Assembly (NCBI GenBank): GCA_018296165.2
Contig: JACKQL020000050.1
Coordinates: forward strand, 124,001 to 188,000
DNA length: 64,000 bases
Source: Termitomyces sp. T153
Taxonomy: Eukaryota > Basidiomycota > Agaricomycetes > Agaricales > Lyophyllaceae
Reading direction: 5' to 3'
Each line of letters starts with the position of its first letter. The stretch's first letter is position 1. The position numbers and the translations under genes are program-made. Below are positions 1 to 63,546 of the stretch, in pieces. The notes beneath the pieces are model-generated. The model searched no databases, was not told the origin of the DNA, and was given only the letters and a program-made list of their open reading frames with translations.

Positions 1-95
1 GAACCTTCAGTAGAAGTTAACAAATCCTAGAAAGGCCTGTACTTCCTTCTTGTTCCTTGGCTCAGGCCACTCTGCTATGCCTGCCACCTTGATGG
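1..95 (-). pseudogene. Gypsy element A, reverse-transcriptase C-terminal fragment
   Basis: Read on the minus strand, these bases give a typical Ty3/Gypsy RT connection segment (core [13 protein letters not shown]), then a stop where an arginine is expected (FY*RF). They continue directly the RT fragment that stops at about 2203: the DPI at the right edge joins [10 protein letters not shown] here, so the two pieces are one gene split by insertion B. CpG is almost absent and the stop is of the CGA to TGA type. The rest of A lies outside the window to the left. Confidence 0.75.
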
Positions 96-2202
96 TGATG
101 AGACTCTATTCTTGCTGAGTACTGATTTCTGTCTTTTCCTATGTTTTGGTAACTTCCAGAATTTCTGGTTTCTACACAATGTGATGATCATGTGACTTCA
201 TCACATGTGGTCTAGACCCCCAGCCCATTGGATGACTTTTCCCTAGCAACCTCTAGCAACCTCTTAGCAAAGTTACCAACAATATTTCCTTTCTTGGTAT
301 TATTGCTACAGTTTCATGACTTCTTGATTTAGTCTTATTCCCTTGATACATGCCACTTTAGCAACCAGCATACTGACTGTCATTCCAGGTGTTGGATTTA
401 GCTACAGTTTGGGTTATTTGGTTTATTGACTTTCACAAGCCATTTCTCCTGACTAACCTAGGTCACTAGTGACCCTTTTCACTGCTATTGACTCCTTTCA
501 ATTTCATGACTTTTACTTACTATAAATACTGTCATGTTTTCTATACAGACACCAAAGAATTGCACTGCATTATGAGCCCCAAACTTCAGATCTAAGTCTA
601 GCAACTCTAGAACTTCTTCTATTGCTCTAGCACTCTCTCTATTGAGTTGATGTCCTTGTTGTTTTGTTCAGCTAGTACCACATTAGGGTACTATTTTCCC
701 AAGTCCACATCTAGCACTAGCACCTATGGCTAGTTTTGTTTTGGTATTATTCCCTTTTGCTAACACCTTCTTTGCTATCTCTAGCACTTGCCTTTAGAAT
801 TCTTTTGCTAGCAACCCCTCTCTAGTTACTGTACCTCTGCTCTAGTCAGGTTTACCCAGAGTATCCCCTTCCTTATTTGCTATCTCCTCCTACTGACCTT
901 GCACTAGCAACCTAGCACATCTCTTGTATCTAGCAAGCTTTCCAGGACCTTGCTCAACTTGTGCCCTCATTTCTCATATGTCAGGTTCCACTGACCATGG
1001 GGGCTCAGCTGCACTGGGCAAGTCCTTACTAGGCAGACACAATGCCCTGCACTGATAATCTAGCACTTTGGAGAGGTCTGGACTTCGGATACTTGTGAGG
1101 GTAAGTAAAGGAGGAGTGGTCTGAGCAAGTCCAAAGTGGTCTGGGGAGGTCCAAGACAAGGTACAAGGGAGGCTTGGGCTTTGGGAAGTTCCAGGTACAA
1201 GTCTGGGGGCAAGTATTGGTGATGTGGGGCAAACAGAGGCTATGCAAGTGATGGAAGTGGGGCCAGAGTTTGATGGGAGATCAAGGGATGTTGATGGGTT
1301 TTGGAGTGAGTGAATAGCAAGGTCTGGAGTTGGTTTATGAATGTTTGGGATTGTAATTGTAAGTGCAGGGTTCATAATGGCATTAGAGTTGAAAGGACTT
1401 GGACACAACAAAGGAAATAGAGATGATCAAGATGAGATGGAGTTGAGGCAAGATTGAGATGAGAATGAAAATAGATTCAAGCAGAGATACAAAATGATAA
1501 TGAGACAATAACAGAGATAGAGACAAGACAAGACTGGGAGACTGAGATAAGACCAGGTGACTGAGAGAAGAGGAAATGTAACAAGAAACACAAAACACAA
1601 GAGACAAACAATCAGAAACACATCAGGTAAGGCAATATCAAGACTAAAGTATGGGATGTTACTCTACAACTTATATACTAACTACTGGAACATCTCCAGG
1701 GATAGCAGGTTTGGCAGCAGGGCTCATTGAGGTCATGCAGAGCCAACAGGTGTTGGTTGTGATCAGGGGGTGGGCTGCAGTGATATACTGATGAGATCAG
1801 CCAGGGATGTGGGCCATCCCAGAGTCATTGTGATGCTCCAGAGCTGGTTGGGTAAACCAGTGTGACAAACTGGTGACATATGCCAGTGTCAGGAACAGTG
1901 GGGGAGGGTTCCAGGGGCTCAGGAGAGGAAGGGGAAGCATTGAGGTCTGTGGAGAAACACATTGGAGTTAGCCAGGGAGCCATTGGGGTTTGCCAGAGAA
2001 GTGTTGGTGTTAGCTGGAGTAAGCATCATGGGTGAACAAAGGTTGGAGGAGTCAAAGGGGGAACTCCAGGGAAGCAAGGTGGCTTGGGGAGAGAGGGGCT
2101 CTGGAAATGGGTCATGAAATTATAGTCTGTTTATACTCTACTTATGAAATCACTAGTTGTTGTGTTCTTTGCACAGCAGCTAGGTGGCAACAGACATCAT
2201 CA
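96..2202. mobile_element. Element B: CpG-decayed insertion, probable solo LTR or non-autonomous LTR element
   Basis: This 2.1-kb block splits the RT of element A. It starts TGATGAG and ends CATCATCA, i.e. with the same inverted TGATG/CATCA ends as the LTRs of element C. It is flanked by GATGG (91-95) and AATGG (2203-2207), a target duplication with one difference, or a perfect 4-bp ATGG. Removing it restores the RT reading frame around DPIKV. No coding region is recognised. Bases about 240-960 hold roughly a dozen TAGCAA/TTGCTA hexamers and many CTAGCAC/CACTAG variants, the expected decay products of the TAGCGA/TCGCTA motif of element C. A TATAAATA box lies at 531-538 on the plus strand. A solo LTR of a related family is the simplest reading; a truncated element is possible. 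Confidence 0.65.
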
Positions 2203-4134
2203 ATGGGATCCTTCTCTGCCATTCTATGCCAGATGATCAAACCTAGGTACTCAACCTTAGTCTGTTCAAACTCACACTTCTCAGGCTTCAAGTAGAGCTG
2301 GTGTTGGTGGAGGCATTCCAAGACAATGTGCATGATCTGGCAATGCTTTTCCAAAGTCTTGGTGTAGATGAGGATATCATCAAGCTACACACAAACAACA
2401 CCTTCTGCAATCAGACCATAGAAGATGTCATTCATCATTGTCCAAAAGGTGGACAGGCTGTTGGTGAGACCAAAGAACATCACCAGAGGTTTAAAGAGAC
2501 AATTGGTTTGCAATGCTGCCTTTGACTCATCTCCTTCTTTGATGTGCACAATGTTGCAGCCCCAACAGACATCCAACTTGGTGAAGTAGCATGCAACTCA
2601 AAGGTTATTGACAAGTTCAGAGATTAGTGGTAAGAGATAGCCATCATTGCATCCAAGACTCAATAGTCCTGAATCAGACAGAGAGACCCATCCTTCTTCT
2701 TAATAATAAAGACTGGGAAGGCCATTGGGGATCAGAGGGTTGTATGCAGCCTGAGCTAAAATTTTCCTGCAGAACCACATCCAGCTCATCCTGCTCACAG
2801 GGCACAAGTGGATAGACTTTGCAGCTGTAGGATTCTGCATTGGGTATCAGCTCAACTGCACAATCCTATTGCTTGCACTCTAGGAGTGAATCAAATGATG
2901 CCTTGGAGAATATGTCCTCAAAATCATGGAGGTGACCAGGAACTGTGCTACAAAAGGACTTGGGCTGAGAGTTTGCTGTAAAACAGCTTGGCTAGTCATT
3001 GAGAAGTGGATTGACTGGCCTGGATCTCTGCCACTATAAGAGGAGGGCAGAGGGTCATAGCATATATCCTATCACCTACCTCAATAGTCTTGTGGTCCAG
3101 AGTGCTGACAGATTCTCCTTTGCATTCATCTTCCTCCTGATATTCACATCCAATACCTCAGACATCCTTGTAGAGAGCCTCTCTATTGAGGGATGCCAGA
3201 GGAAGGGGATCTAGGAGGTTGAGATCAGCATAGAAAAGATGCCCAGCACAACAGGTGCACATGGCAGCATGCTCACAAACTTTTGCTCTGTGCTCCTTGT
3301 GGGCCTCTTTGGCACAAGTCATGCACTGATGAGAACAGCAACTCATATTCCCCTCACCCTTAGTCCAGTCAATCTTGGGGTTATGTTCATGTAACCAGGT
3401 GAACCCCAAGTTCATGTCTTGCTTCCCCAAACTGGTGACAGGAGAAGTGGCTTGCTCAGAGTGGTCCTGGTAACAAAGAACCAGGTCCACCACTAAATGA
3501 ATAGAGCCAGCTTCATTGAGCATGCCATCAACATTGTACACAGGGATAGAACAAGAGAGGGGGCAGGTGATGAGGCAATGTCATTGCACATAGTCTGTGT
3601 TGAGGTAGAGGCCCATTGCCCCACTGTCAAGCAGAGCAACAACACTTTGGGTCTGCTGGGTGTCTGTTGTCTCAATTTCTATCTGTAACTTTGAAGAGTT
3701 GGCAGAAGGGGTGGAAGCAACAATGTAGCAACAGGAGAGACAATGTTTCCATGCAGAAATCCAAAGGCATGAGTTAGAAGGTGTATTCCCAGCTGAGACT
3801 TTAGCTGGAGGGGGCTTTGTATGTCTGGGGCTTATTGTTCTGGGCATAGTATCAAGGACAGCAACAGATATATTTTATTCTATGGACAGAGGAGCAAAAT
3901 AATTAGCACTGAGCAATGGGGGCATACAGATCATCTGTTGACTGTTTATAAATCCTCCTTCAACTCTACAGGTATGACCTCCAATTCATCAGCAAACTTG
4001 ATGGACAGCAAACTCAGTGGAGAGAGCAGCTATGGGCACATTGGAAGAGGGGCCTCCTATTGCATCCTGGGCCACCAGGAGTTGGACAAGCAGCTCTTTC
4101 TCTTTTTGCTCTGATGAGGAGAGGTAGTGCACTT
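2203..4134 (-). pseudogene. Gypsy element A: gag end, protease and reverse transcriptase, broken
   Basis: Minus-strand relic of an old Ty3/Gypsy polyprotein. In coding order it has: a gag tail (about 4134-3960); an aspartic protease with VALLDSGAMGLYLN near 3600-3640; a linker with LGKQDMNLGFTWLHEHNP (about 3400); and RT pieces, namely IIKKKDGS near 2700, a segment with KLDVCWGC near 2560, FFGLTNSLSTF near 2450, and YLKPEKCEF with YLGLII near 2240-2290. Several stops and frameshifts interrupt it, many of the CGA to TGA or CAG to TAG kind, and CpG is nearly absent. This fits deamination of methylated cytosine in a silenced repeat. Element C sits at its 5' edge, element B at its 3' edge. It is not functional. 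Confidence 0.8.
4131..4134. repeat. Target-site duplication ACTT, left copy
   Basis: ACTT directly before the TGATG of the left LTR; the matching ACTT is at 15449-15452 directly after CATCA. Joining the flanks through one ACTT restores the gag reading frame of element A (CPQG-LEV-H). Confidence 0.85.
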
Positions 4135-5267
4135 TGATGTGCTCCTATGCCGCCTAGTGCCGTGCAGGAAACCAAAAAGAGAGGACCAAACACTAGTCAC
4201 TAGATAGGGTAGCTGGCAGTAGGAAGTTAATAATGAGGGCGAGTCAGTAACCGTCCCAGAGAACGAGAGTTGAAATGGTGTATTCGAGGTGAAGTAGAAG
4301 TTGGTCGCTATCGCTAGCTGCGGTCGCTAGTGATAATAAGGGGAAGATGAGTGAAGACGGATAACGTTGCTAAGACTAAGCGATCCCTTAACGGTGGTGA
4401 AAGGGATAGAGCGAAAGAGAGGAAATGACAAAGGGAAAGACTGAAATCAAAGGACGAACGTAAACTAGTCGTTAGCCGTAGTCGCTAACGTCGCTAAGTC
4501 GAAATAACGCTAACGGGCACCCGTAATTGGTACCACACGAAGTCGATGCCGAAGTCGAAGAGGCTTGTCGCTAAGCCTAAGTCGAAGACGAGATGAGAGA
4601 GAGACAAAGGGGTAGACGAAATCTTAAGCTGGTAGGCTTATAGAGAGGTACGATCCGATGGTGGAAGTCGATGGTAATTGCCCTTCTATGAGTTCTATGT
4701 ACAAGCAGTATTTATATGTTCCCAGAGTACAGTAAGGGAGGGTAAGCAATTAAGTGCCACTAGCGACGGCGTCTGTCACTGTTTACGGTGCGTGCCAGAC
4801 GTCAGTCTTGTAACTAAGTAAAAGGGTCGTAGATGAGGTCTTAGCGACGACTAATTGCTAATAAAACCAAAAAAAAAAAAGAACGAGTCCGCTGTCAACT
4901 CCTGAAGCGCAAACGCCGTCCCAGTATATGTGTAAGCTCGGTAACTAAATGATAGGGAAAAAGGTACGCGTCTGATAATTTGTCCATATATGGTAGAGCC
5001 TTGTTTGGTCGCCAAGATCGCTAGTGTCGCTAGTAATCGTCGCTAGGGGGAGTCTAGGCCTTGAGGATCTAGACCTAAGTTCCAGACTTCACGTGATATT
5101 CCTCGTGATTGATAAGTCTCGTGATTGCTAGAGTCTCGTGATTCGGTCCCATCCTCGTGCTAAGTCCCGTGCGCTGAGTGTTGTGACTTGTGTCGGGTTC
5201 AAAGTAGTCAGCTGCCGCTAAGTCCGAAATGTCAAAAATGGTGCTCAGCGATAACTGGGGCTCATCA
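4135..5267 (-). repeat. 3' LTR of Gypsy element C
   Basis: 1133 bp, near-identical to 14320-15448. Differences seen by eye: an A-run of 12 versus 8, and four substitutions. Ends are TGATG and CATCA. On the coding (minus) strand a TATAAATA box falls at 4716-4709. It holds 11 TCGCTA/TAGCGA hexamers, against about 0.5 expected in random sequence of this length, and it is non-coding, so codon choice cannot explain them. Confidence 0.93.
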
Positions 5268-5276
5268 TCCTCCCCC
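5268..5276 (-). other. Polypurine tract of element C
   Basis: On the minus strand GGGGGAGGA abuts the 3' LTR (next bases TGATGAG). This is the expected position and composition for the primer of plus-strand DNA synthesis in an LTR retroelement, and it confirms the minus-strand orientation of C. Confidence 0.8.
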
Positions 5277-5439
5277 GTACTGAAATATTGACTGTCCTCA
5301 GTCAACCTCGAAATCACGTGCTCGAATGCCTGGTCCGTGCGCCAAGGAGATTCGAGTAAAAGTAGCTGGCGGTATCGCTCGAACTTCATCATCCCACTTC
5401 CTTATCGTCTAATCATCTCTACATCTCGATCTTATCGCT

Positions 5440-7447
5440 ATGTCTGACCTCGCATCGCAACTTGAAAAGATCACGATGGCCCACGCCTTTCTGGACCGCG
5501 TCGACCGATTGCTCGCTGTGGCTCGTGCGTCGTTGGCGAAGGATCCTCGCTTGGCGGTCACCGCCATATTTCAGACGTGGCTGCAATGGTTCAAGACCTC
5601 GGGGAGTGGAATGGAGTGGCCGGAGTTGGCGACTGTCGAGAAGGAGTGTCGCCAGCTGTATGAGGAGTACAAGGGGGAAGAATGGGTTCGCCCATTTGAT
5701 GTCCACTTCGTAAGTGTCTTCTTCTCTTCTTGTTAGCGATGACTTCTGACGCGATCGCCAGGCGCCAGTCGACCCTTCGCTGGAGTTCTTAATGGACGAC
5801 CTCACGGCGGGAATGACGGTAAGTGCCCCAGTAGTCGCTAGCGCTAGCGACACTGCTAAGGTACGTTAGCTCTTTGAAGACTTGTCACCAAATGACCAGT
5901 TTTTCTTCCAGCACCCGGTAGGTGCGACAGCGGTGGCGAGGGGGGAGGAACGAGGCGAGGGTCGGGGGAACGAGGAGGCGGCGAATCGTGGGGACATTCA
6001 AGAAGCGGGCCCCTCGACTCCCAAGGCTGCGCCTGGCGGCGTCGCTAGGGGGTTGGCGACGTCGCCAAGATTGGCGACAACCCCGAGGAGCAAAGGGAAG
6101 GGGAAGGGAAAGGCAAAAGCACAAGATGAGGAGGACGAGGATATTGAGGTGAGTCTTCTTTCTTTTTCGCTAATCCTTGGCGACAATCGCTAACCTTTCC
6201 TGCAGGATCATGTTGAAGAAACGTTTACCGACAAGCGCTTGGCGACACTCCTTCGATGGCGAAGGACGACGACGGTGGTGGATACAGGTCTGGGAGCAGG
6301 AGTGAAGTTGGACAAGGCTAAAGGCAAGGTAACAGTGTCGCTAGAGAGGCGGCAAGAATATAAGCGCACGCAAGGAGCGGTGAGTACTTAGCGATCTTTT
6401 CTCTTCTTGTCGCTAACACCTTCTTTTAGTGCGACAACTGCTGGGCCGACAATGACCCAGAAGGCTGCTGGTACCCCACGGGGGTCCAGCCGTGCTATCG
6501 CTGCGACAGTACCAGGAAGAGCTGTTCGCACAGCGGCCAGTCATCGAGGAGCACTGGCAGTAAATTCGCTAAGAAGATAGCGATCAAGGCGGCGTCGGTA
6601 AGGAACGCGCGGGCTTTTGTGGAGCGGCAGAGGGAGCGGGCGATGCGAGGGGAGGCGATCGAGGTCGAGCATTCGAGCTTGAACTTGCCGACGTCGCAGG
6701 AGGAGGCTGGGGTTAGCGGCAGCGGAGGCGCCAAGGTGAAGAGCAGGGCAGTGGTGGAGAGCGACGAGGACCGCAGTGACGACGATGGCGACGACGACGT
6801 GCCTCTGGCGCGGAAACGGCCAGCAAGTCCTTCGTCGGTCGCTAGCGCTAAGCGACCTCGAACAGTCGCCAACGAGGGGGAAGACGAGGACGTGGGGATG
6901 AGAGAGGCGACTCCCTTGGCGACGGTCGCCGAGGTAGAGCGGGAAGCGAGCGACATGGAGGTCGAGGGCGAGGAAGAAGAAGTTGTACCCGTCGCTGCTG
7001 AGGAGGAGGAGCAGGCTGAGGAGGTTGAGGTCGTTCGACGAGTAAGTTCTTTCCTTTTGCTAACTTCTTGATCGCTAACTGCTTTGTTAGGGAACCTGGA
7101 GCGATACTCCATTGCGCCAGGTTGGCGACGACGAACTGGAGTGGCTGGGCGAGGACCTTGGCTGGCCGACGCCGCTAACGACAGCGGCGTCGCTACTGGA
7201 CTTCGATGAGAGGGCGGCGGGAGTGGAACGACGGTTCCAGAGGGAGCTGGAGGCGGCGAGGGAGGAGTTGTTAGCGGCACGGGCTCGCTATACAGTCGCT
7301 AAGCGGACGCTGGCGACTCTGGCGGGATATCGGCGAGACTGTCAGGCTTTCCTGGCCTGGCAGGAGGAGAACAACGTTGGCGAGGGGGATTGGGAGGAGG
7401 CGGAGGCGAGGGAGGTTCCCGAAGACGACGCCGACCTCGACGCCTAG
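5440..7447 (+). CDS. Spliced antisense gene inside Gypsy C; Zn2Cys6-like cysteine-cluster protein, 568 aa
   Basis: Function unknown. The model has six exons (5440-5709, 5762-5818, 5912-6148, 6206-6379, 6430-7041, 7091-7447) joined by five GT-AG introns, all phase 0. The gene runs opposite to gag and pol. Its start follows the 3' LTR by about 170 bp and its end converges on pol. Residues 1-85 look helical. A basic lysine-glycine stretch near residues 170-182 could be a nuclear signal and is followed by an acidic run. Exon 5 opens with six cysteines spaced C-x2-C-x8-C-x8-C-x2-C-x6-C (C247, C250, C259, C268, C271, C278), close to a GAL4-type binuclear zinc cluster. Long acidic tracts follow (about 320-450), then a coiled coil (about 480-540). 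Intact frame, consistent splice sites and normal CpG argue that it is a real gene. A DNA-binding or silencing-related role is inference; loss of unrelated coding capacity or a captured host gene are alternatives. Confidence 0.8.
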
Positions 7448-7780
7448 CGACTGCCGTCCCCTGTATATAAATTTTTAGTTTTATCTTCGTATGGACACAG
7501 ACTAGCCCCCTTAAGGGGCCCCAAAAATGTATAGTACTTTGTTCACGATTCAGGAACTGAGAGGGAAATGAAAGAGAAACAAGGAATAAGGCGTACTAGC
7601 GATTGTCGCCTAGCGCTAGCGACGCTTTGAAGGCAAACGCTCAGTAGATCATCATGGCGAATTACCCCTAGAGGCGTGCCGAGCGCTGGCGACAGAATAG
7701 CCTAGCGCAGCATCGAAAACAAGACAGTAGTAAGTAAAGTGTCTGTGAAAGATTAATGTTTTTGTAACGTATTTGCGGAT

Positions 7781-7781
<1 letters not shown>

Positions 7782-7854
<73 letters not shown>
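7782..7854 (+). repeat. Homopolymer of 73 T between the two convergent genes of element C
   Basis: Uninterrupted T run, equal to A73 on the pol strand, beginning 26 bp after the pol stop and 334 bp after the stop of the antisense gene. It could be a relic of a polyadenylated transcript joined to the element during reverse transcription, or a grown slippage tract. The exact length in the genome is uncertain because such runs are error-prone in sequencing. Confidence 0.9.
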
Positions 7855-7855
<1 letters not shown>

Positions 7856-7880
7856 AATAATAGGGAGAAAAGAGGCAAGG

Positions 7881-10800
7881 TTAGGATAGACCGCTAAGGC
7901 TTAGCGAGAGGTAGTATTCTTCTTCACTGGCGACCTCGCCAGTATCATCGTCGTCGACGAGGTCTGTTTGCTCCAGTTCTCTGAGACGTGAGGTGTCGAT
8001 GTCGAAAGCGTCGCTAGGCACGGCTATGTGTTCTCTAGCGAAATAGGGGACTAGGCGAAAGGCAGCAACAGGGCGATGTAGCACGGAGCCATCTAGTTCA
8101 CAAAGAATGTAAGCGCCGCCACGGTTGCGAGATATTACCACAAGTGGGCCTAGGTAGCGCGGCTTCATCTTCTTGTTATGCGTTACTTCGATCCTAGTAT
8201 TCCTCATTAGTACGAGGTCACCGGTTTTGAAATTGTAATCGCGAATAGTGGCGGAATGATCTTTCTCAAAGCGAATAGCGGCCAAGCGACGGGCGCTAAG
8301 TACTTGGCTGTGCAAGCGGTCGAGATCTTCTTGGCGACGCTGGAGGTCAATTGCTCGGCGGGCGATGAGATCTGTGGTCGATAGTAGCGAGTTTGGCGGT
8401 GGTTGCAAGTATGTCGCTTCCACTATGTCAGCCGGCAGGAGCGGGTGGGTACCGGTAGCCGCGAAGTATGGGGAGCAACCCATTCGCTTGCGAACCGTAA
8501 CGCGTTCTGACCAAAAGACAGAGTAAGTAGCAGTACTCCACCTAGACTGATCGCCATCAACTGCTTTGAAGAGAGCTTGGCGAACATCGAAATGCGGCCG
8601 CTCGACTATTCCGTTAGCGCGCTTATTGTAACCTGAAATCCGGATGTGGCGCAAGTTATACTTCTTCGCCAAATAGGCAACGGCCTTTAGAATTGGGGGT
8701 CCGTTGTCGGTAACGATTTCGCTAAGCGCTCCCCAACGACAAATGACGTCCTCGTATAGCCATTTAGCGATGGCTTCGGTGTTTTCTCTGGCGAGCATGC
8801 GGAACTCGGGGTAATGGGTTAGCGAACAACGTCCCTGGATGATGTACTTGAACTTGTTGGAGGGCGGCATGAACATGGTGTCGACGTATATCTTACTGAA
8901 CAATGGCGCGGGCGTTGCGACGGTTGGCGGAATAAGCACCTTGGTCGTTTGGTGAATCTGGCAGAGATGACAAGTCCGAAGGTACCACATGATATCGGCG
9001 CTAACTTGAGGCCACCAAAACCGTTCCAGAAGTGCCGAGCGGGTAGCGAAAAGACCTCTGTGTCCCAAGTCGTCATGCATCGCTTTCAGGACTCGTAAGC
9101 GACTGGCGATAGGAACGAACAACTTGTGAGCGCCATCTCGACTTCTGCGCCAAAGTTTGCCTCCCGTGACGAAAAACATGGATGCGTAGCGAACGAAGGT
9201 GGCGTAGTCCTTGTCGCTAACGCCATCAGGTCTGACGAGGTCGTGAAGCCATTTCTCTACTAGGAGTACTCGAGCGTCGCTGGCGATAGCTTTTGCACTA
9301 CGGGGTACGTCGCTATAAGTGGTGGTGCCATCGTCTCGGAGGGGTGTTATATCGTCGCTTGTCGCTAGTCGTGGGGGGGTGTCGGTGTCGCTGGCAAAGG
9401 TCGCTAAGGTATGCGAACGTTCGTACTCGGCCAAAGGGGGTAAGCGATGCGAGGCCGTCGAGACCTGGCGAAGTAGCGGTAGGGGTAGCTGAACTTGGTG
9501 TACGAACCCATGTAAGCGGTCGATCCAGTCTTCGTAAACCGAGTTATCGCTATCGTCGCTCGGAGGGTCGCCAGGCTGTGGCGGGCGTCGCGAGAGACCG
9601 TCAGGGCCGTGGAACGTTCCTTTGACGTGAACCAGCTTAAAGTGAAACATCCAAATCGCCATAATCCAGCGGTTCATGCTAGCGGAAGGTTGGATGTCAG
9701 GGTTCTGAAGCATACCCTTAATGTAGCGAGCGTCGACTTCAATGATAAGGTTCCTGACGCCGATGAGGTACATTCGTAACGCTTGTAAAGCTCGATAGAG
9801 GCCATAAAGTTCCAACTTGGGCTGGCTGAATCGGGCTTCCCTGTCGTTTAGCGTAATAGACCCAAAGCGGTTGTAGCGGCGTTCTTTGCGATTGTCGCCA
9901 GTGCACTGACAAAGGTAAAATCCGACCGCTATGTATGACGTATCGACCGCTAAGATGACTGGGTCAGGCGATTCATAATCGATAGGAACAAGGGGCTTAG
10001 CGTCTTGTAGGGCTTTTACGAGATCGCGTTGAGCATTTATTTGATCGGGGCCAAACTCGAAAGGAACGCCAACGCGTGTGAGCTTCGTTAAATTATGGGC
10101 TCGATGTGCAAAGTTCTTGACGAAAATCCTTAGTACCCCGACAGTACCTAGGAAGGCTCGAACTTCCGATAGCGACTTGCAAGGACCCCATCGCTCGATT
10201 AGCGCTAGGCGACTTTCGTCAGGGACTCGACCGCTAGGGGTGCAAACGTGTCCTAGAATCTTGAACGTCGGGGCGCAGAGAACCAATTTATGACCTGAGA
10301 AGGTGCCACCGCAATACTTCATTCGCTGAAGAATCCTGTTGAGAAGTTCAAAGAACTCCCAGAGCGCTAGGCGAATATTCGGGTTAGCGGGATGCTTAGC
10401 GGGTTTACCGTTAACGATTTTCCAGTCCTTGGGTCCCTTAGCGCCAACGTCATCGATAAAACTGAGCACGTTATGGGGGATCTCTGGCTGCAAGATAAAG
10501 GTAATGTCGTCGTGGAATATAGGCACAGAGTTGGTCCATCCCATCGGCAGGGTCACTAGGCGAAGAGCGCCAAATGGAGTCTGGAACGTCGTTAAGTCGC
10601 GTGATGCCGAGTCAATAAGTCGCTCGTCGTAGCCAACGTAGAGATCGAGGGTGGCGCCACAGATGCGTCCAGCGAAGGATTCGGCAACGTGATCTGGAAA
10701 AGGTGGTACTCCAGAATGACGGATGGTGACACGGTTTAGCGGCTCGAGACTGTGTACAATCCTGAGCTTACCATTCTTCTTGAGTACGCAAAACCATCGG

Positions 10801-11657
10801 GAGCGGTAAGCGGAGTTCGAAGGTTCATAGACGCCAGCGCTAATCTTGTTGCGAATAATTTCACATACTTCCTTTTCTAGACCTGGCGGTATGGGGCGAT
10901 TGTGCTGGACCCATGGTACGTGCGGAATCGTCGGTATGCGAACAGGTGGAAAGAAGTCGGGGCGCAAACTTCCTCGTTCGGAATCTTCCCAAGCGAAGGC
11001 TTTGTCTTGTTTGGCGACCATGTCGACTAGTACGTTGATTTCGTCGCTAGTGAGGAACCCTGTGTCGTGGTCGTCAACTAGTTTCGCTTGTCGCTCGCTG
11101 GTGAATCGCTTTGTCGGAACGAAAGGCGGTGGATTTGGATTAAGTGGGGGCATTGTCGCTAGTGGATCGCCAATAATCTGTCGCTCGATTCGAAAGTCTT
11201 CGCTAACGTGGCTGGCGACAGGTTTGGTTTTCATAGCGACGGGTTTGTACTTCTTCTTTACCTGGACTCCTTTTCGCTTAGGGGGTTCGTTAGCGATATA
11301 CTGAGCGGGGAAGGGGATGTTAACATAAGTGGGGGTAATGTCTGTAACGCATGGGTCAAAAGGTAAAGTCTGTCCAAGAATCAAGGGATTAGATGTATCA
11401 GTAGAAACAAGATAAGAACGAGGTGGAAGGGACGAATCAGAAATGTTGCTAGCCGTAGCGTATAGGTATGCTAGCGCAGGATTAGTCTGTGTGTCGGAAT
11501 TAGTAGGTAAAACGTCTTTGTCCAAATCACAAGAGGCTATACAAGTCGCTAGACCAGTTGAATGATCGTAGCTGATAACGACCGCTAGGTCGCTATCTTC
11601 TTCTTTACTGCTTTCGGCGATGAAAGCAACGGGGTGCCTCGGTCTCGAAGCGAACAT
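7881..11657 (-). CDS. Gypsy C pol: reverse transcriptase, RNase H, integrase (1258 aa)
   Basis: Makes and integrates the cDNA of element C. One open frame. RT core: LEPLNRVTIRHSGVPPFPDH, LDLYVGYDE and PMGWTNSVPIFH, with the catalytic aspartates in FIDDVGAKG (in place of YxDD). RNase H: VILAVDTSYIAVGFY, ELYGLYRALQ and VDARYIKG. Integrase: an HHCC zinc module (HDDLGHRG ... TCHLCQIH), then the DDE residues in YVDTMF, VTDNGPP and GIVERPHFD. The C-terminal part (MKPRYLGPLVVISRNRGGAY) resembles integrase tail domains; no chromodomain is seen. The frame is +1 relative to gag-pro and overlaps it by 53 bases, so expression needs a +1 shift or reinitiation. All catalytic residues are present, so the product is probably active. 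Confidence 0.92.
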   Translation of the reverse strand: MFASRPRHPVAFIAESSKEEDSDLAVVISYDHSTGLATCIASCDLDKDVLPTNSDTQTNPALAYLYATASNISDSSLPPRSYLVSTDTSNPLILGQTLPFDPCVTDITPTYVNIPFPAQYIANEPPKRKGVQVKKKYKPVAMKTKPVASHVSEDFRIERQIIGDPLATMPPLNPNPPPFVPTKRFTSERQAKLVDDHDTGFLTSDEINVLVDMVAKQDKAFAWEDSERGSLRPDFFPPVRIPTIPHVPWVQHNRPIPPGLEKEVCEIIRNKISAGVYEPSNSAYRSRWFCVLKKNGKLRIVHSLEPLNRVTIRHSGVPPFPDHVAESFAGRICGATLDLYVGYDERLIDSASRDLTTFQTPFGALRLVTLPMGWTNSVPIFHDDITFILQPEIPHNVLSFIDDVGAKGPKDWKIVNGKPAKHPANPNIRLALWEFFELLNRILQRMKYCGGTFSGHKLVLCAPTFKILGHVCTPSGRVPDESRLALIERWGPCKSLSEVRAFLGTVGVLRIFVKNFAHRAHNLTKLTRVGVPFEFGPDQINAQRDLVKALQDAKPLVPIDYESPDPVILAVDTSYIAVGFYLCQCTGDNRKERRYNRFGSITLNDREARFSQPKLELYGLYRALQALRMYLIGVRNLIIEVDARYIKGMLQNPDIQPSASMNRWIMAIWMFHFKLVHVKGTFHGPDGLSRRPPQPGDPPSDDSDNSVYEDWIDRLHGFVHQVQLPLPLLRQVSTASHRLPPLAEYERSHTLATFASDTDTPPRLATSDDITPLRDDGTTTYSDVPRSAKAIASDARVLLVEKWLHDLVRPDGVSDKDYATFVRYASMFFVTGGKLWRRSRDGAHKLFVPIASRLRVLKAMHDDLGHRGLFATRSALLERFWWPQVSADIMWYLRTCHLCQIHQTTKVLIPPTVATPAPLFSKIYVDTMFMPPSNKFKYIIQGRCSLTHYPEFRMLARENTEAIAKWLYEDVICRWGALSEIVTDNGPPILKAVAYLAKKYNLRHIRISGYNKRANGIVERPHFDVRQALFKAVDGDQSRWSTATYSVFWSERVTVRKRMGCSPYFAATGTHPLLPADIVEATYLQPPPNSLLSTTDLIARRAIDLQRRQEDLDRLHSQVLSARRLAAIRFEKDHSATIRDYNFKTGDLVLMRNTRIEVTHNKKMKPRYLGPLVVISRNRGGAYILCELDGSVLHRPVAAFRLVPYFAREHIAVPSDAFDIDTSRLRELEQTDLVDDDDTGEVASEEEYYLSLSLSGLS

Positions 11658-14385
11658 TTTGGCGGTTGTTTCTTTTGGTCTTGCCGCGCGGAAAGGTAGG
11701 GATAGTTCGTCGTTGGCCAGTGTTGGGGTCCGAAATAGTTATAGTTGTTTCGACGTCGCTAATTGTGTTGACTGTGCTTCGAGTTAGTACGTCGAAAGGA
11801 CGGCCGAGTAGAATGTCGTAGGCGGGAGACCGTAAAACGTGGATTTGAAGATAGACCGTGATGTCGCCAAGGGTGCATGGTACGTTGCGAGCAAGTCCTA
11901 GCGATCGATCCATGGTACCGTTGGCGCTCTGCATGTTTAGCACGATGTTGGGGTCGTATGATAAACCAATATCGCTAGCGATTTCGGCCGACATGGAGAT
12001 TATTTGGGAACCGCTGTCGTGGATGCATTCTACTTCTTCTTTGTTGTCAATTAGCATCATGACGGTACGAAGTGACTGAGATTCCTTAGCGACAGTGAGT
12101 ACTACAGGTTCTTCTCCAGGGGGTAGCGAATCGATATAGGCCTCGACAGGGTCAATGGAAGCGAAAGGGGCTTTGTCAGCGGCAAGTCCGTTAGCGGTGT
12201 CAGTGTCTAGCGAAAATTGTGGTTCTCCAATAGCGAAGGTCGGCAGAATATCTTCAAAGATGTCGCTAGAGTCCTGTACGGTGCTAGCGCCTACCAAACG
12301 TTTGGGCGTGACTGCGGTTCTGAGCTGATTTCTGACGTCCTGAGATACCGAGCATAGTTCGCCCACTGTTACAGTCACCGGAGTGCTTAATACTCGATCA
12401 AAAACCGCTTTAGACTGCTCAATGCTGTAGATGGGTGGCATAGTTCGATAGGCGCTGTCGTTGGCTTTGTCGGGAGCAGCGAAATTCCTGTTAGCGGGCG
12501 GGGCGTAGCGACTGGGGATGCCAGAAAACGGATGGACGGGAGGCTGAACGACGGGTTCCTTAGTGACGGGCGGTTGTTCCTTAGCGACGGTTTGTTCGGG
12601 TGCTTTGCCTTTGTCGGCAGGCTTAGCTGCAGGAGCTGGAGTTGAATTGGAAGGGGGTGAAGTCACCGGAGTGTCGCTAGTCGAGGGTGTTACTTTTGGG
12701 GCTTCATTCGCTGGTCGGTAAGCCGCACGAGGAACTTGTACGCCGTCGAACTTTTCGCCATTTCGCCTGAGTGCAAAGAGTTCGCGCTCCAAGGCCTGGA
12801 TCCGTTCTTCTTTGCTTAGCGATCGGCCCATAGCGACATCCTGCTGCATTACCTCGTGTATTAGCGCCTGCTGCATAGCCGCTTGCTCGGGATCCGGATT
12901 AGCGTTGGGAGAGAGTCTGCCTGTAACGATTTGTCCTGGGTTAAGCCTATGCCATTCCTCGATGCGTTCCATGTATAGTCGCTTGCCAAAATAGTTGGGA
13001 ATCATAGCGCCAGACGGTAGGATGATTTTGCCTTCAGCGTTTCGACGGATCTTACCCTGTAGGATCATTTGCTCCAGCTTTATACAGGTACCTCGGACCA
13101 TGGTGTGACCAGTTTCGCCACAGAAATGGCATGTGCTGTTAGAGAATTGCTGGCGAGGTTGGGCGTTACCGTTAGTCAAAAGAGCTTCCAGACGTTCCAA
13201 GGCGCTGACGATCGCTGTAGTGGTCGCTAATTCCAAGGTTTCTTGTTTAGGTACAGGTGAAGGGACAACTGGTGGGTTAGCGATTGGCGATGACGAATGA
13301 ATACCGCTGGTGCCATTGTTGGTTTTGGTCGTAGAGGTGTCCGTTCCTTTTAAAACCCATTTAGCGCCTTCGAAGACTTGGTCAACATCATAAGGGTCCT
13401 CAGGATGGTGGTCGGGGAGAGTGATTTCGAGACGGCGAACGATTTTAGACCATAGCGACGTGGGGATACCTTGCTGGAACAGGCGACGTTCCTCATTGCG
13501 GTAGAGCTTGCCATTAGCGAGTAACCATCTGGCGATACGTTGGAAGTCCCGGTAGTAATCAGAGAACCTTCCTAAAGTCGCTAAGCCACTGTTAAAGGTC
13601 TGGTTTACGAGTCTTTCCAAATCGCCAAGGTTATAACGCGCGCTAGCGTCAGCGCCAGGGTACAGCCTAAGCACTGCCGCCTTCCATTCGTGATAAGTGT
13701 ATGGCCGAGGATCGTTGTTGCCGATAGTGACGTTGTCGCCAAATTCGGGTAAGCCAAGCCAGGTTTCTGCCGTGTCATATGAGACATATCGAGCCGCATA
13801 TTCCTTCTTCTGCGTGTCGTCAGCGATGCCGCAGTCAGCGAAGAGATATTCCAATTCTTTGAAGTATTGAGGGAGTTCCCTAGGGCGACTCTCATCCCAT
13901 TTAGGAGCAGTTGTGTCGTTGCGAGGCGGCATTCTAGCACGCCGAGCGACGGGGTCGTTGCTCATAGTAGCGATTGTCGGATTTAGCGAAGGGAGGGGGT
14001 TAACTGTCGATGATGGGATAGACCGAGCTTCTGGGAAGAATAGAGAGTCGGTAGGAGTTAAAGGTGAAAGAGGTGCGTCGAGGAAACTTTCGATAAAAGC
14101 GCCTGGAAAGTCGGCAAGGATTTCGCTAACGTCGCGAAGGTGTCTAGCGATTTCAAGTTCGTCGGCCAGAGGTCGAGGATAAACTGTGGGCGACAAGTGC
14201 TGAGGGGTCGAACGAGTAGACTGGGGTGGTTTAATAGGGTTTTCCAAGCGACGTTTCGCTTGAGCTCTTGTTTCTGGCGGAATGGTTAACCTCAAATCCC
14301 CTCGCGGTGGGCTCCAAAATGATGTGCTCCTATGCCGCCTAGTGCCGTGCAGGAAACCAAAAAGAGAGGACCAAACACTAGTCAC
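11605..14385 (-). CDS. Gypsy C gag and aspartic protease (up to 926 aa)
   Basis: Capsid/nucleocapsid precursor with protease. The open frame begins with an ATG inside the 5' LTR (22 codons before the LTR edge) and reads through the primer-site region. A later start at MSNDPVARRARMPPR (about 13966) would give a more ordinary gag and is an equally good choice. The gag core lies around ELPQYFKELEYLFADCG to the WVLKGTD segment. A zinc knuckle follows: CHFCGETGHTMVRGTC, spaced C-x2-C-x4-H-x6-C, longer at the last step than the usual x4. The protease active site is CIHDSGSQIISM with a downstream flap-type ILLGRPFDVLTRS. Codons are CpG-rich like the rest of element C. The stop at 11605 overlaps the pol start. 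Confidence 0.88.
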   Translation of the reverse strand: MTSVWSSLFGFLHGTRRHRSTSFWSPPRGDLRLTIPPETRAQAKRRLENPIKPPQSTRSTPQHLSPTVYPRPLADELEIARHLRDVSEILADFPGAFIESFLDAPLSPLTPTDSLFFPEARSIPSSTVNPLPSLNPTIATMSNDPVARRARMPPRNDTTAPKWDESRPRELPQYFKELEYLFADCGIADDTQKKEYAARYVSYDTAETWLGLPEFGDNVTIGNNDPRPYTYHEWKAAVLRLYPGADASARYNLGDLERLVNQTFNSGLATLGRFSDYYRDFQRIARWLLANGKLYRNEERRLFQQGIPTSLWSKIVRRLEITLPDHHPEDPYDVDQVFEGAKWVLKGTDTSTTKTNNGTSGIHSSSPIANPPVVPSPVPKQETLELATTTAIVSALERLEALLTNGNAQPRQQFSNSTCHFCGETGHTMVRGTCIKLEQMILQGKIRRNAEGKIILPSGAMIPNYFGKRLYMERIEEWHRLNPGQIVTGRLSPNANPDPEQAAMQQALIHEVMQQDVAMGRSLSKEERIQALERELFALRRNGEKFDGVQVPRAAYRPANEAPKVTPSTSDTPVTSPPSNSTPAPAAKPADKGKAPEQTVAKEQPPVTKEPVVQPPVHPFSGIPSRYAPPANRNFAAPDKANDSAYRTMPPIYSIEQSKAVFDRVLSTPVTVTVGELCSVSQDVRNQLRTAVTPKRLVGASTVQDSSDIFEDILPTFAIGEPQFSLDTDTANGLAADKAPFASIDPVEAYIDSLPPGEEPVVLTVAKESQSLRTVMMLIDNKEEVECIHDSGSQIISMSAEIASDIGLSYDPNIVLNMQSANGTMDRSLGLARNVPCTLGDITVYLQIHVLRSPAYDILLGRPFDVLTRSTVNTISDVETTITISDPNTGQRRTIPTFPRGKTKRNNRQNVRFETEAPRCFHRRKQ
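14297..14316 (-). other. Candidate primer-binding site of element C
   Basis: Three bases inside the 5' LTR on the coding strand begins TGGAGCCCACCGCGAGGGGA. Retroviral-type primer sites usually start TGG, pairing with the tRNA CCA end. I could not match the rest to a specific tRNA, so self-priming or a rarer primer remain open. Confidence 0.5.
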
Positions 14386-15448
14386 TAGATAGGGTAGCTG
14401 GCAGTAGGAAGTTAATAATGAGGGCGAGTCAGTAACCGTCCCAGAGAACGAGAGTTGAAATGGTGTATTCGAGGTGAAGTAGAAGTTGGTCGCTATCGCT
14501 AGCTGCGGTCGCTAGTGATAATAAGGGGAAGATGAGTGAAGACGGATAACGTTGCTAAGACTAAGCGATCCCTTAACGGTGGTGAAAGGGATAGAGCGAA
14601 AGAGAGGAAATGACAAAGGGAAAGACTGAAATCAAAGGACGAACGTAAACTAGTCGTTAGCCGTAGTCGCTAACGTCGCTAAGTCGAAATAACGCTAACG
14701 GGCACCCGTAATTGGTACCACACGAAGTCGATGTCGAAGTCGAAGAGGCTTGTCACTAAGCCTAAGTCGAAGACGAGATGAGAGAGAGACAAAGGGGTAG
14801 ACGAAATCTTAAGCTGGTAGGCTTATAGAGAGGTACGATCCGATGGTGGAAGTCGATGGTAATTGCCTTTCTATGAGTTCTATGTACAAGCAGTATTTAT
14901 ATGTTCCCAGAGTACAGTAAGGGAGGGTAAGCAATTAAGTGCCACTAGCGACGGCGTCTGTCACTGTTTACGGTGCGTGCCAGACGTCAGTCTTGTAACT
15001 AAGTAAAAGGGTCGTAGATGAGGTCTTAGCGACGACTAATTGCTAATAAAACCAAAAAAAAGAACGAGTCCGCTGTCAACTCCTGAAGCGCAGACGCCGT
15101 CCCAGTATATGTGTAAGCTCGGTAACTAAATGATAGGGAAAAAGGTACGCGTCTGATAATTTGTCCATATATGGTAGAGCCTTGTTTGGTCGCCAAGATC
15201 GCTAGTGTCGCTAGTAATCGTCGCTAGGGGGAGTCTAGGCCTTGAGGATCTAGACCTAAGTTCCAGACTTCACGTGATATTCCTCGTGATTGATAAGTCT
15301 CGTGATTGCTAGAGTCTCGTGATTCGGTCCCATCCTCGTGCTAAGTCCCGTGCGCTGAGTGTTGTGACTTGTGTCGGGTTCAAAGTAGTCAGCTGCCGCT
15401 AAGTCCGAAATGTCAAAAATGGTGCTCAGCGATAACTGGGGCTCATCA
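14320..15448 (-). repeat. 5' LTR of Gypsy element C
   Basis: 1129-bp partner of 4135-5267. It holds the promoter for the full-length RNA and carries ten TCGCTA/TAGCGA hexamers; one present in the other LTR (GTCGCTAAG) is GTCACTAAG here, a CpG to CpA change. The right end CATCA is followed by the ACTT target duplication. Confidence 0.93.
14894..14901 (-). promoter_or_regulatory. TATA box in the 5' LTR of element C
   Basis: Coding-strand TATAAATA within CATATAAATACTGC, about 550 bases into the LTR from its upstream end. It is the best core-promoter candidate for gag-pol transcription; the start site would fall near 14865. Confidence 0.55.
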
Positions 15449-15818
15449 ACTTCCAGCCCTTGAGGACAGTAACTGGCAAAGTGGCCAGCCTTTTTGCAGT
15501 GTTGACACAACTCACTGCCTAGAGCCTTCATGTAGGAGAGGACCCAGGAAATTTTCAGGGGATTGGAGGCAAAGTTTCACTACTCAACTGGATATAGGTG
15601 ATGAAGGATTGAAGGAAACATTCTCCAACCTTATAGTCCCCATCAAATACATCATGGAGTGCTGTGCAAGGAGGTTTGGAGCAGGAGGCTAAAAGGACCA
15701 AGCTAAGTGCAGAAGGGAACCTTCCTACATCTGCTGAGGGTTCAGTGGGAGGAGTAGGAGCAAGGGGGAGGCATTCAGGGCCTGGAGGGAGAGGGACACA
15801 GCTTTGGTGGTTTGACAT
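15449..15818 (-). pseudogene. Gypsy element A gag remnant with CCHC zinc knuckle
   Basis: Continuation of element A beyond insertion C. The minus strand shows a gag segment FDGDYKVGECFLQSFITYIQ (about 15640-15580) and then a canonical zinc knuckle CQHCKKAGHFASYC (C-x2-C-x4-H-x4-C, 15515-15474). The gag core between them appears deleted. Stops interrupt the frame and CpG is scarce. The knuckle is followed at 15452 by the target duplication of element C. Confidence 0.75.
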
Positions 15819-16493
15819 AATCCAGTAAGTTCAGCCATGTGGGAGGTAAGAAAAGCTTGTGTCAGTTGGATGTGTGTCTCCAGGGACAACAAACAACTTC
15901 AGGCATTGTCCTGGGGGCTTGAAGCATCAGGGGGAGGTGCTGGAGGCATTGATTGGGTCATAGGGGGGCACAGGGAGTAGCAAGACACTGATAGGGAGAG
16001 ACCTTTTGAAAAACCAAACAGAAAGACTGAGGCAGTCAAAAAAGGGGGCCCTGAGACCAAATCTAGAGACTTGTTCTCCTGTAAGGGCAACCTCTGTAGG
16101 CTGTGGCTCAATCACACAACTGGCAAATGGAGATCTAAAGTCTATCCAACATTTACAAGAAGTTCCAGAGTTCTAGCTACTCACCTGGCAGAGGGAGATC
16201 CAAAGAGAACAAGTCTAAGGATTCCCAATGCCAGTGTTTGGAAAATAACTCTAGAGCTTCTGGAAAAAAACACTCAACAACAACCAAATCTGGAATCTGA
16301 TCCAAAAATGGAAATCCATTGTAAATGGCCCCAATCTCCACACTCACAGCATGTGACCACATACAAATATGACCAAAAGATAACCCTTGGTCAAAAGTAC
16401 TTGTGATCAGAAGATGGGAGGTTAATAATGAATGGCAGGCTTGGAATGAAGGAAACAGAGTGCCTGGTAAGAGCAGTCCTCTGACAAGAATAC
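15819..16493. other. CpG-depleted transposon debris without a recognisable gene
   Basis: The upstream part of old element A would be expected here. Short open frames on both strands contain nothing I recognise. CpG is rare. No LTR border of element A could be located. Confidence 0.5.
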
Positions 16494-18405
16494 ATGCTAT
16501 GCATCATTGACTTTGATCACTCTATCCTGAATGGAGCTGTTATCACAATTCATCTTAGTATTGATATGCAGAATTGTTACACACCCATGCATCCTATATG
16601 GACAATATTAACAAGCTTCATGTTCCTTTCCTGTCTCAACTTCTCAGCTCTCCATCAGTTCTTGCAGGAACTAAGCATAGTGCTCCATCCCATATTGGCC
16701 CTCACAAGAAAATGCCATCAATTTGCCAGAACTGGAATTTGGAGATTTGTTCATCAGGACCATGCCCTGGTGGTCATCACCACCATGTCTCTTGTGAATG
16801 CAATGGTTCCCATAAAGCTAGGGAAGTCAATGACTGCTTTAAAGAGCTCAACCTTCAATGACAGCAGCAATATAGAGCCTTGGTTGGAGGCAGTAATCTA
16901 CAGCTGCTGCTGCAAGGTCAGAGGTCCTAGATCTTTGAAAAGCTCTGGCATGAAATGACCACTAGAAGTGATGGATTTTGAGGGCCAGAAATCTAGACAT
17001 GGCTTTGTTTGGGATTGAGATAAACCAATCACACCTATCTCTCTTTCAGCATTCAACATTGAGACAGCTCCTCCACTCCCATTGCCCCCACATCACCTCT
17101 GAGAAAATCTGGTCTACTGGGCAACCATAAAGGCATTGCAGAATAATATACATGTCAAGACTCCTTTCAACATGGATAAATTGGAACAAATCTTATGGGA
17201 TCATCCAAATCAATCTTTTTGTCAAATTGATAATGAGAAACTTACATGAGAGATTTTGGCCATTTGACAAAGAAGACTGACTAGCCAATAACAAAGACCC
17301 CCTGTCAAATTATTCTACAGAAGAAGTAGTTTCAACACCATACCCATATGAGCTTCCCAGGATCAAGAAATTCAAGCAGGTAGATGGTCAAAGGCCGACT
17401 GCCTGGCATGAAGTCATCACCGCTATTTGTTGTCTGGCAGAAGAATAAAGCACAGGTTGTCACTGATCATTCTGCATCGGGTCTGAATGACAGCATATAT
17501 AAGGTAGAGGCCAAGGTCCACTACGATGACATGAGAACTTTTAGCCAGGCAATGTTCAAAGCTAAATGCAGCTTCCTCAACGAGACCTTGGTTACGTGGA
17601 AATCGGATGTAGCAAGCGCATTCGTGAACCTACCAGCACACCGTTGTGGCAAATCCGTCAGGTGATGAATGTAGACGAGTCTGGCACATTGTCCATCGAC
17701 TCGTTTTCAGAAATCGAGCTTCGCCACGCTGTTGGTGCGCGATATCTTCACTTATGTGCTGGGTTGGCATGAAGGAGCTCGACATCAGAAATCGATCTGC
17801 ATGTATTTATGGACGATTTCGGGATCGGAGTGACAATCTTATTGTCAATGAAAGTATTTCCAGACCGCAGAGTCAGGCTCAATTGCTAGTTTTCTGGGAT
17901 GTGATCAGTTGTCTGTGGGAAGAAAAGAAACAGGACTTTGAGGAAAGAAAATATTTGGACTTTTGGGTGGACATTAACCCAAGCACTATTACACTCACCA
18001 ATGAATCAACGGCTGAATACAGTTGTCGAGACACGATCACGCCGACCACCGTTACGTACCTGGCAACGATTGGGCGGTCACCTAAACTGGTTACTCAACG
18101 TCTTACCTTGGGGCAGACTGGCGCTTACAGAGATGTACCGAAAGTGCCCACATTACTCCTCAAAAATCGTGACCCGATTCCTTTCAATTCTCCATCATTC
18201 TCTTGCCAGTAGCTCCATCAAACAAGCCTTCTGTGTGGTATGCCTGCTTTCTTCCCGGCCTGCAGTGTGTGCAGTGATTTTGTCTGATACCAGGGAAGAA
18301 GAGCTGCCAGATTTCAAATTTTCCAGGAGGCATTATGATATGGGAGTGATAGAACCGGCTAGTTCATCTCTATATGTAGTTCATCAGAAATTTCTGGACT
18401 ACTAA
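16494..18405 (+). pseudogene. DIRS/Ngaro-like retroelement fragment, multiply frameshifted
   Basis: Plus-strand relic. At about 16720-16830 is a cysteine/histidine module ICQNWNLEICSSGPCPGGHH ... CECNGSHKARE, typical of the gag-like N-terminus of basidiomycete DIRS-type elements. From about 17450 an RT follows in three successive frames: VTDHSASGLND, YDDMRTFSQAM, WKSDVASAFVNLPAH, LVFRNRASPRCWCAISSLMC, then FMDDFG at about 17800 (DLHVFMDDF) and GGHLNWLLNVLPWGRLAL at about 18080. At least three frame changes break it, and no tyrosine recombinase is seen. The first half is CpG-poor, the RT half less so. It is not functional. Confidence 0.7.
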
Positions 18406-45856: not shown

Positions 45857-46088
45857 TGTTGAAGTGGTCAGGGTGTCTGCATATGACACCCCCTTTTGGA
45901 TTCCAATGTGTACATACATCATAGTTTAGTTCTGTGACATTCCATACATTTTTACACACCATCACAATACTACTGCCCATGTCATCTCATGTTCAGTGCA
46001 TTGTGTGCATCTCTATGGACCTGAAAAGGTTTCTGTGCCACTCTTGCATGTTTTCTTGTGTTCTTCTGCCCTTTTGCTATCTTTAACA
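45857..46088 (+). repeat. Left LTR of the gag-only Copia element
   Basis: 232 bp, starts TGTTGAAGTGGTCAGG, ends TTTAACA. It matches 47211-47447 over its whole length with many single-base differences, largely of the C/T and G/A kind. Confidence 0.82.
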
Positions 46089-46089
46089 A

Positions 46090-46106
46090 GTTATGGGCCC
46101 CAGCCC
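46090..46106 (+). other. Half-tRNA primer-binding site
   Basis: GTTATGGGCCCCAGCCC is complementary to the anticodon-loop end of the 5' half of eukaryotic initiator tRNA-Met (loop containing CATAAC). Ty1/Copia elements such as Drosophila copia are known to prime this way. Confidence 0.6.
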
Positions 46107-46186
46107 CAGACTTAATCAAACCATTGCTGCTTCTTGTGCTTCTTTCACATGTCACCTCAATGATTATATTCTATTAACTTCCTCAT

Positions 46187-47062: not shown

Positions 47063-47210
47063 TAACCTGATCCTGATTATGTTGACCTGACCTCCAACAA
47101 TGAACAGTATGCAGTACTCTCTGCTCAGGAACAGGCCCCTTGTGTACTTTGATGGATAAGCTGGATTTGGTGGGAGTATTTCTTCATGTGTCATGTGGGA
47201 CAGGTGGGAG

Positions 47211-63453: not shown

Positions 63454-63546
63454 GGTTATTGGCCCCAGTTTTTGCACTTTTAAGCACACACCTGACACCA
63501 TGCACAATAACAAACATTATACATCCACTTTATATAAAAATTAAAA

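Follow-up and report, generated by a model that had tools for sequence, protein, structure and literature searches.

Why should a single hexamer, TCGCTA or its complement TAGCGA, recur along almost an entire retrotransposon, and which molecule, if any, would read it? The question is raised by a 64,000-nucleotide stretch of the Termitomyces sp. T153 genome (hereafter the window), in one Gypsy element of which, designated element C, an earlier note had counted by eye some 86 copies of this word and taken them for a selected DNA-level site. Our count of positions 4135–15448 gave 87 copies (49 TCGCTA and 38 TAGCGA), with 13 copies in the remaining 52,686 bases of the window.

Anatomy and age of element C

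Element C is an 11.3-kb LTR retrotransposon (4135–15448; 11,314 bases). Its LTRs at 4135–5267 (the left one, 3' with respect to gag-pol) and 14320–15448 (the right one, 5' with respect to gag-pol) form a direct repeat with 4 substitutions and one 4-base gap between them, and a 4-base target duplication, ACTT, flanks the element. On the minus strand a gag-protease open frame (11605–14511, 968 aa from stop to stop; Pfam Asp_protease_2, E = 1.1e-5) is followed by a pol open frame (7881–11738, minus strand, 1285 aa) with RNase H and integrase H2C2 domains. LTRs with a target duplication, and gag-protease followed by pol with RNase H and integrase, make the element a member of Gypsy/Metaviridae; PF00078 gave no match in its pol at E ≤ 1 and is annotated in some close homologues. 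A further gene, hereafter the antisense gene, lies on the plus strand at 5440–7447, convergent with gag-pol, and a plus-strand run of 73 T (7782–7854) sits between the two. Besides the LTRs we found no repeats of at least 60 bases in 3000–17000, and the viral contigs that were scanned contained no relative of element C pol. The antisense exon is identical in 7 copies, element C included, in the genome of 72.4 Mb (307 contigs), and 14 LTRs in the same genome are 99–100% identical, which indicates that element C was recently active.

TCGCTA is over-represented in every part of the element

The sites are spread over the LTRs (11 in the left and 10 in the right one), the region 5268–7880 (20), pol (23) and gag (11739–14319; 23). 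With one LTR counted, element C holds 77 sites, against 6.8–6.9 expected and a maximum of 14 in 200 dinucleotide-preserving shuffles, and each part taken alone exceeds every such shuffle (LTR 11 vs 0.9, 3' region 20 vs 1.4, pol 23 vs 2.6, gag 23 vs 1.6). Under an order-2 Markov model 11.4 sites are expected, and TCGCTA attains the top score among all hexamers with at least three different letters. Synonymous-codon shuffles, which preserve the protein and the codon counts, gave 5.4 sites in pol (maximum 13, n = 1000) where 23 are present, and 4.6 in the gag-protease frame 11605–14511 (maximum 12, n = 1000) where 25 are present; codon bias is hereby ruled out as the cause of the excess. In coding DNA the word uses all reading frames save those that would create a stop. 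Its density is 6–10 per kb in LTRs, pol and gag, compared to 0.43 per kb (13 copies in 30.5 kb) in presumed host-gene stretches, for which we used the CpG-normal positions 18000–44000 and 48500–53000, taken as genes without annotation.

The best-fitting motif, found on both strands, is (G/A)TCGC(T/C)A(A/G). Position 5 of the hexamer tolerates T or C, since TCGCCA reaches 44 copies against 5.6–5.8 expected. Four further neighbours are raised two- to threefold (CCGCTA 18 vs 6.0, GCGCTA 22 vs 6.9, TCGCTG 15 vs 6.7, TCGCTT 21 vs 8.7), and the remaining one-base neighbours less than twofold. Gaps between adjacent sites show no fixed spacing (coefficient of variation, CV, 1.06), and all four orientation pairs are present. 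The spacer at 5268–5439 has no TCGCTA site, and the longest site-free stretch, 10176–11043 on the minus strand (874 bases from start to start), covers what appears, from its conserved residues, to be the reverse-transcriptase core. Codons within the motif depart from the pol consensus no more than others do (3 of 24 vs 62 of 581).

Most of what the earlier note had described is borne out by these counts: copies in LTRs, introns and coding DNA, the use of different coding frames, a frequent relaxed form (TCGCCA) and scarcity in host genes. It had named as grounds for rejection a rank no higher than that of comparable hexamers after shuffling, or an equal density in host genes, and neither was found. 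Two of its statements need qualification. Both orientations are about equally common over the one-LTR element (41:36, p = 0.65), but locally they are uneven (9:2 in the LTR, 7:16 in gag); and the saturation it described holds for the element overall but is not uniform, as the two site-free stretches show.

Sites are retained in related copies while their positions turn over

Saturation, with 14–27 TCGCTA per 3.6 kb, was seen at each of 30 related loci taken from the same genome (L009–L038, of which 7 are near-identical to element C); as these loci were found via the antisense gene or the LTR, the co-occurrence of motif and antisense gene is partly due to the choice of loci. Diverged copies were aligned to element C, and retention of the motif was compared with that of control hexamers, which also contain a CpG, match the motif in composition and lie clear of any motif site. 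For each site we took the mean retention over all copies of a set, to keep related copies from inflating n. In 23 copies (L016–L038) motif retention was 0.66 vs 0.41 for the controls (p = 0.0044). When sites whose CpG had become TpG or CpA were scored as kept, the contrast in these 23 copies was weaker (0.75 vs 0.57, p = 0.03), and the values were 0.81 vs 0.48 in 22 further copies (L052, L054–L074; p = 6.5e-5) and 0.57 vs 0.28 in 6 old copies (L047–L051, L053; p = 4.3e-5). For gag-pol of two relatives retention was 0.64 vs 0.44 (p = 0.008) and 0.46 vs 0.30 (p = 0.02). The relaxed form TCGCCA was likewise retained in the antisense region of close copies (0.66 vs 0.41, p = 0.0056) and old copies (0.46 vs 0.28, p = 0.0068), reached p = 0.056 and 0.06, a borderline result, in two further comparisons, and showed no retention above controls in gag-pol (p = 0.30 to 0.43). 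Copy by copy, motif retention in the antisense region exceeded that of all hexamers in 13 of 15 loci; in the partly decayed copies L033 and L054 it was 0.41 vs 0.41 and 0.33 vs 0.36, and there it still lay above the values for CpG hexamers (0.32 and 0.24).

Among 11 hand-picked relatives, those of 85–86% identity to element C have 5–7 private sites and those of 68–71% identity have 10–20. In total these relatives carry 24–36 sites, intact or CpG-decayed, where 4–5 are expected; other words may also give rise to decayed forms, a source only partly allowed for in the Markov expectation. An example is L049 (71% identity) with 36 intact or CpG-decayed sites (4.6 expected), 16 of them shared and 20 private. 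The density of sites is kept while their positions turn over.

Two unrelated Gypsy families of the same genome, the comparison that the earlier note had proposed, stay at chance level. Eight loci of one family (L001–L008, 3.5 kb each, 94–99% identical to L001) have 1 TCGCTA per locus, and so has L077 (4.3 kb), which belongs to a further family. L001 and L077, both of which were scanned, contain protease, RT, RNase H and integrase domains, and the RT-RNase H of all nine loci has 23–24% protein identity to element C pol. In synonymous shuffles no hexamer of L001 or L077 rose above z 4.6, whereas element C pol reaches 8–10. Among the matches listed, none to the antisense gene lay within 15 kb of the nine loci. 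These loci represent two families rather than nine independent controls and, as both families are distant, they cannot separate an effect of the antisense gene from one of pol ancestry. A milder enrichment of CTCCGC was seen in L001–L008 (10–15 copies vs about 3–4 in 3.5 kb where listed); CTCCGC is absent from the top four hexamers in the synonymous shuffles of L001.

CpG decay at the sites

The word is centred on a CpG, and in old copies the sites have decayed there to TTGCTA and TCACTA. Most studied Agaricomycotina are reported to carry two to three DNMT1-type CpG methyltransferases, and methylation to be enriched at transposons in all fungi studied (PMC13297926). Where the CpG o/e of a copy is 1 or more, 94% of the cells for motif CpGs are intact, as against 72% for other CpGs that have a T before or an A after them; these cells pool related copies. 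Dead copies (CpG o/e <0.3) have lost motif CpGs in 91% and the others in 93%, and no protection of motif CpGs is seen in such copies. In half-decayed copies motif CpGs were decayed in 41% and 65%, other T-before/A-after CpGs in 49% and 75%, and the remaining CpGs in 39% and 69%, about as the motif CpGs. Half-decayed copies thus lose motif CpGs a little less often than other T-before/A-after CpGs and dead copies about equally, so that no clear lasting protection is seen. The CpG o/e of element C is 1.22 (1.13 without its motif sites); this high value needs no anti-silencing as its explanation, since the element is young. With sites being lost to methylation-type decay, the element would gain from unmethylated CpGs at its sites.

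The antisense gene and its predicted protein

The antisense gene (5440–7447) is predicted to have six plus-strand exons in a GT-AG model (5440–5709, 5762–5860, 5912–6148, 6206–6379, 6430–7041 and 7091–7447), encoding 582 aa. Its five exon joins are supported jointly by the annotated Termitomyces proteins P0001, P0002, P0006 and P0029, and the public proteins matching the antisense exon at E ≤ 0.01 are from Termitomyces in 44 of 44 cases. The exons contain 10 TCGCTA and 15 TCGCCA in 1749 bases. The five plus-strand introns (5710–5761, 5861–5911, 6149–6205, 6380–6429 and 7042–7090; 49–57 bases each, 259 in total) contain 6 TCGCTA and 2 TCGCCA, with none in intron 2. In the last three of these introns TCGCTAAC terminates in a likely branch site, CTAAC, and the TCGCTA word may therefore double as a splicing signal.

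A cysteine cluster of the form C-x2-C-x8-C-x8-C-x2-C-x6-C (6430–6525, plus strand) is the candidate DNA-binding part of the protein. An alignment of 19 sequences from several Termitomyces, chosen for spanning the region, has all six cysteines without exception; several of 26 antisense gene models lack the region. Fungal Zn2Cys6 domains follow the pattern C-x2-C-x6-C-x5-12-C-x2-C-x6-8-C and are accompanied by a coiled coil. The antisense protein has six invariant cysteines, but its first loop is x8 instead of x6; a coiled coil is predicted in it. PF00172 (Zn2Cys6) matched none of 5 homologues at E ≤ 10 and none of the window frames at E ≤ 1, in searches where HMMER filters drop most weak matches. 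For the cluster no Pfam or NCBIfam model rose above its cut-off; DUF3716 gave the antisense protein a sub-threshold hint (E about 1). AlphaFold predicts a C-terminal coiled coil in the homologue P0002 (pLDDT >90), as well as an acidic stretch of low confidence in the same protein, and assigns a pLDDT of about 40 to the cysteine cluster of an antisense homologue and to the cysteine region of the window. Comparison of solved structures with the antisense profile returned one weak match, a transposase (E = 0.05), which we do not count as evidence. The Termitomyces strains T159 and T32 (in full T159_Od127 and T32_za158) possess versions of this protein peculiar to each strain, present in many copies (P0028, P0034, P0045–P0099) and about 40% identical to that of element C.

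Imprint of the word on protein sequences

We scored how well each hexamer could be encoded by a given protein under uniform codons. TCGCTA ranked 1st of 2034 hexamers from the antisense protein sequence alone, 2nd of 2080 from element C pol and also 2nd from gag; the DNA word is imprinted on the amino-acid sequences. In a set of 121 pols, 120 of them related ones from other sources, the inferred TCGCTA score peaks in that of element C. After normalisation to the pol family TCGCTA took no better than 19th place among element C hexamers, and the method is underpowered to name the words of other elements.

We ranked 18 antisense proteins, our own choice out of 103. For six from the lineage of element C the ranks of TCGCTA were 4, 12, 4, 243, 30 and 3. 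Those for seven T159 proteins were 553–1873 apart from one at 55, and those for five T32 proteins 533–1110, so that the 12 proteins of these two clades (about 40% identical) show no clear TCGCTA imprint, the best rank being 55. These ranks hint that the word may differ between Termitomyces lineages. A conserved WYP stretch of the cysteine region is a plausible source of the words that recur in T159 (TACCAA, for instance), and for this reason we claim no alternative word for T159.

Candidate readers of the site

The excess over synonymous shuffles, the occurrence on both strands and in introns and LTRs, the retention above controls in all five copy sets and the turnover at kept density make it very probable that selection acts on TCGCTA as a DNA-level site, as the earlier note had proposed. 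We infer that a protein reads this site as DNA. That a transposon-encoded protein would bind it is plausible because the antisense gene with its cysteine cluster sits in element C, and we put the chance that the antisense protein is the reader at about even. In the full mechanism that we propose, TCGC(T/C)A sites would be recognised as DNA by the predicted cysteine-cluster protein of the antisense gene; by coating the DNA of its own element, this protein would counter silencing by CpG methylation. The predicted coiled coil suggests a dimer, and since the sites are dispersed with neither fixed spacing nor fixed orientation, their density rather than their geometry may be what is read. Taken as a whole this mechanism is possible, its likelihood falling just short of even; a role as activator or as self/non-self tag would give the same look as the anti-silencing purpose that we favour.

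The main rival is a host DNA-binding protein (an activator, an insulator, or a chromatin or replication factor) that reads TCGCYA, the element having multiplied the sites to recruit it. Any sequence-specific DNA-binding protein would yield the same pattern, and the site is short and thinly spread over the presumed host-gene stretches, which fits such a reader. Saturation through coding DNA is however extreme for recruitment, the two other Gypsy families do not use the word, and the inferred TCGCTA score is lower in the 120 related pols than in element C; we consider a host reader unlikely, but it deserves to be kept in mind. Sites over most of the length and on both strands would also fit double-stranded cDNA, on which the element's own Gag or integrase could read them within the particle rather than on chromatin, for packaging, cDNA protection or the integration complex. 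The word is not a property of the pol family, as element C scores highest of the 121 pols, gag-pol function leaves the extra cysteine-cluster gene unexplained, and the antisense introns are site-rich as well (6 in 259 bases), all of which makes this reading quite improbable.

An RNA-level signal for packaging, RNA stability or splicing would account for the local strand bias in LTR and gag and for the branch-site-like CTAAC ends in three introns. It is opposed by the overall strand balance and by the dense sites in the exons of two convergent genes on opposite strands, and we give it very little weight. The earlier note had judged codon bias and an RNA signal unlikely, and the shuffles, the strand balance and the sites in introns and LTRs agree with that judgement. 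Equally slim is the chance that no selection is involved and that mutation bias or the copying of a motif-rich ancestor produced the pattern: a CpG-rich lineage does favour words containing CG, but CpG controls of the same composition are retained less, lost sites are replaced by private ones, and synonymous shuffles stay below the observed count.

Comparison with known systems

TnpA of Spm/En and the transposase of Ac are element-encoded proteins that bind many short copies of subterminal sites in both orientations, and TnpA activates methylated Spm. Their sites are confined to the ends of the elements, whereas those of element C span most of its length. The Su(Hw) sites of Drosophila gypsy, which form one compact cluster and have a host protein as their reader, are another case of repeated short sites in a Gypsy element, from which element C differs by its element-wide saturation.

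VANDALs are Mutator-like DNA transposons. Sequence-specific transposon-encoded anti-silencing has been described for those of Arabidopsis, where the motif bound by VANC21, YAGTATTAY, is dense in VANDAL21 and rare elsewhere, and where VANC21 removes methylation; the motifs lie mainly in non-coding arrays, in the same orientation and often as tandem repeats (PMC5735166). Element C shares with VANDAL/VANC, as characterised in these reports, an accessory transposon protein (predicted in the case of element C), a dense short motif, rapid motif turnover and, presumably, silencing by methylation as the opponent (PMC5735166, PMC10398659). A restriction of the motif like that in VANDALs was seen relative to the rest of the window and to the two other Gypsy families. 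In contrast to VANDALs, element C is a fungal LTR retrotransposon, and its sites are CpG-centred, lie in coding DNA and on both strands, and are irregularly spaced (the gap CV of 1.06 given above) instead of lying in long non-coding tandem repeats of one orientation. A Pfam search of the antisense open frames and of five homologues matched neither of the VANC domains, DUF1985 and DUF287. Element C hence resembles the VANDAL/VANC system without belonging to it.

Fungal DNA transposons carrying TET/JBP dioxygenases have been proposed to escape methylation via the captured gene (PMC12730594). Like element C they are fungal transposons with an extra gene for which an escape from methylation is proposed, but they use an enzyme, on DNA transposons, and the part of that report available to us describes no dispersed self-motif (PMC12730594). 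No TET-like Pfam match was obtained in the antisense protein. The literature that we covered, with subscription journals largely outside it, held no report of antisense ORFs in basidiomycete Gypsy elements, of extra opposite ORFs in fungal Gypsy elements, of over-represented hexamers in LTR retrotransposons or of Zn2Cys6 proteins with Agaricomycetes LTR retrotransposons. On Gypsy elements in Termitomyces it yielded one paper, which concerned another fungus.

More tentatively still, and with considerable doubt, one may think of a VANC-like anti-silencing by self-labelling that evolved independently in fungal LTR retrotransposons, with the word for the element's own DNA-binding protein spread even through its protein genes and hence readable from the proteins, and possibly a word of its own in each Termitomyces lineage. 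If true, an anti-silencing strategy would have arisen independently in a mushroom retrotransposon, and a self-motif could shape codon choice as well as protein sequence. The imprint of a DNA word on proteins may allow such systems to be found from sequence alone, and the claim is directly testable with one recombinant protein and one predicted motif.

Genomic surroundings of element C

CpG content varies strongly along the window. CpG-poor stretches have an o/e of 0.00–0.05 and presumed gene regions one of 0.67–1.09; positions 1–4134, 44000–48500 and 53000–64000 have values of 0.00–0.03, with neighbours near 0.7–1.1. The CpG-poor stretches are likely old repeats or transposons after intense CpG decay. 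An older, CpG-depleted Gypsy-like gag region (3158–4134 and 15449–15830) seems to surround element C, with a minus-strand frame that contains a zinc-knuckle-like CxxC motif, the domain being named by eye. At 244–1315 a region devoid of CpG contains a cluster of 14 TTGCTA/TAGCAA, which may be what is left of a completely decayed element C relative.
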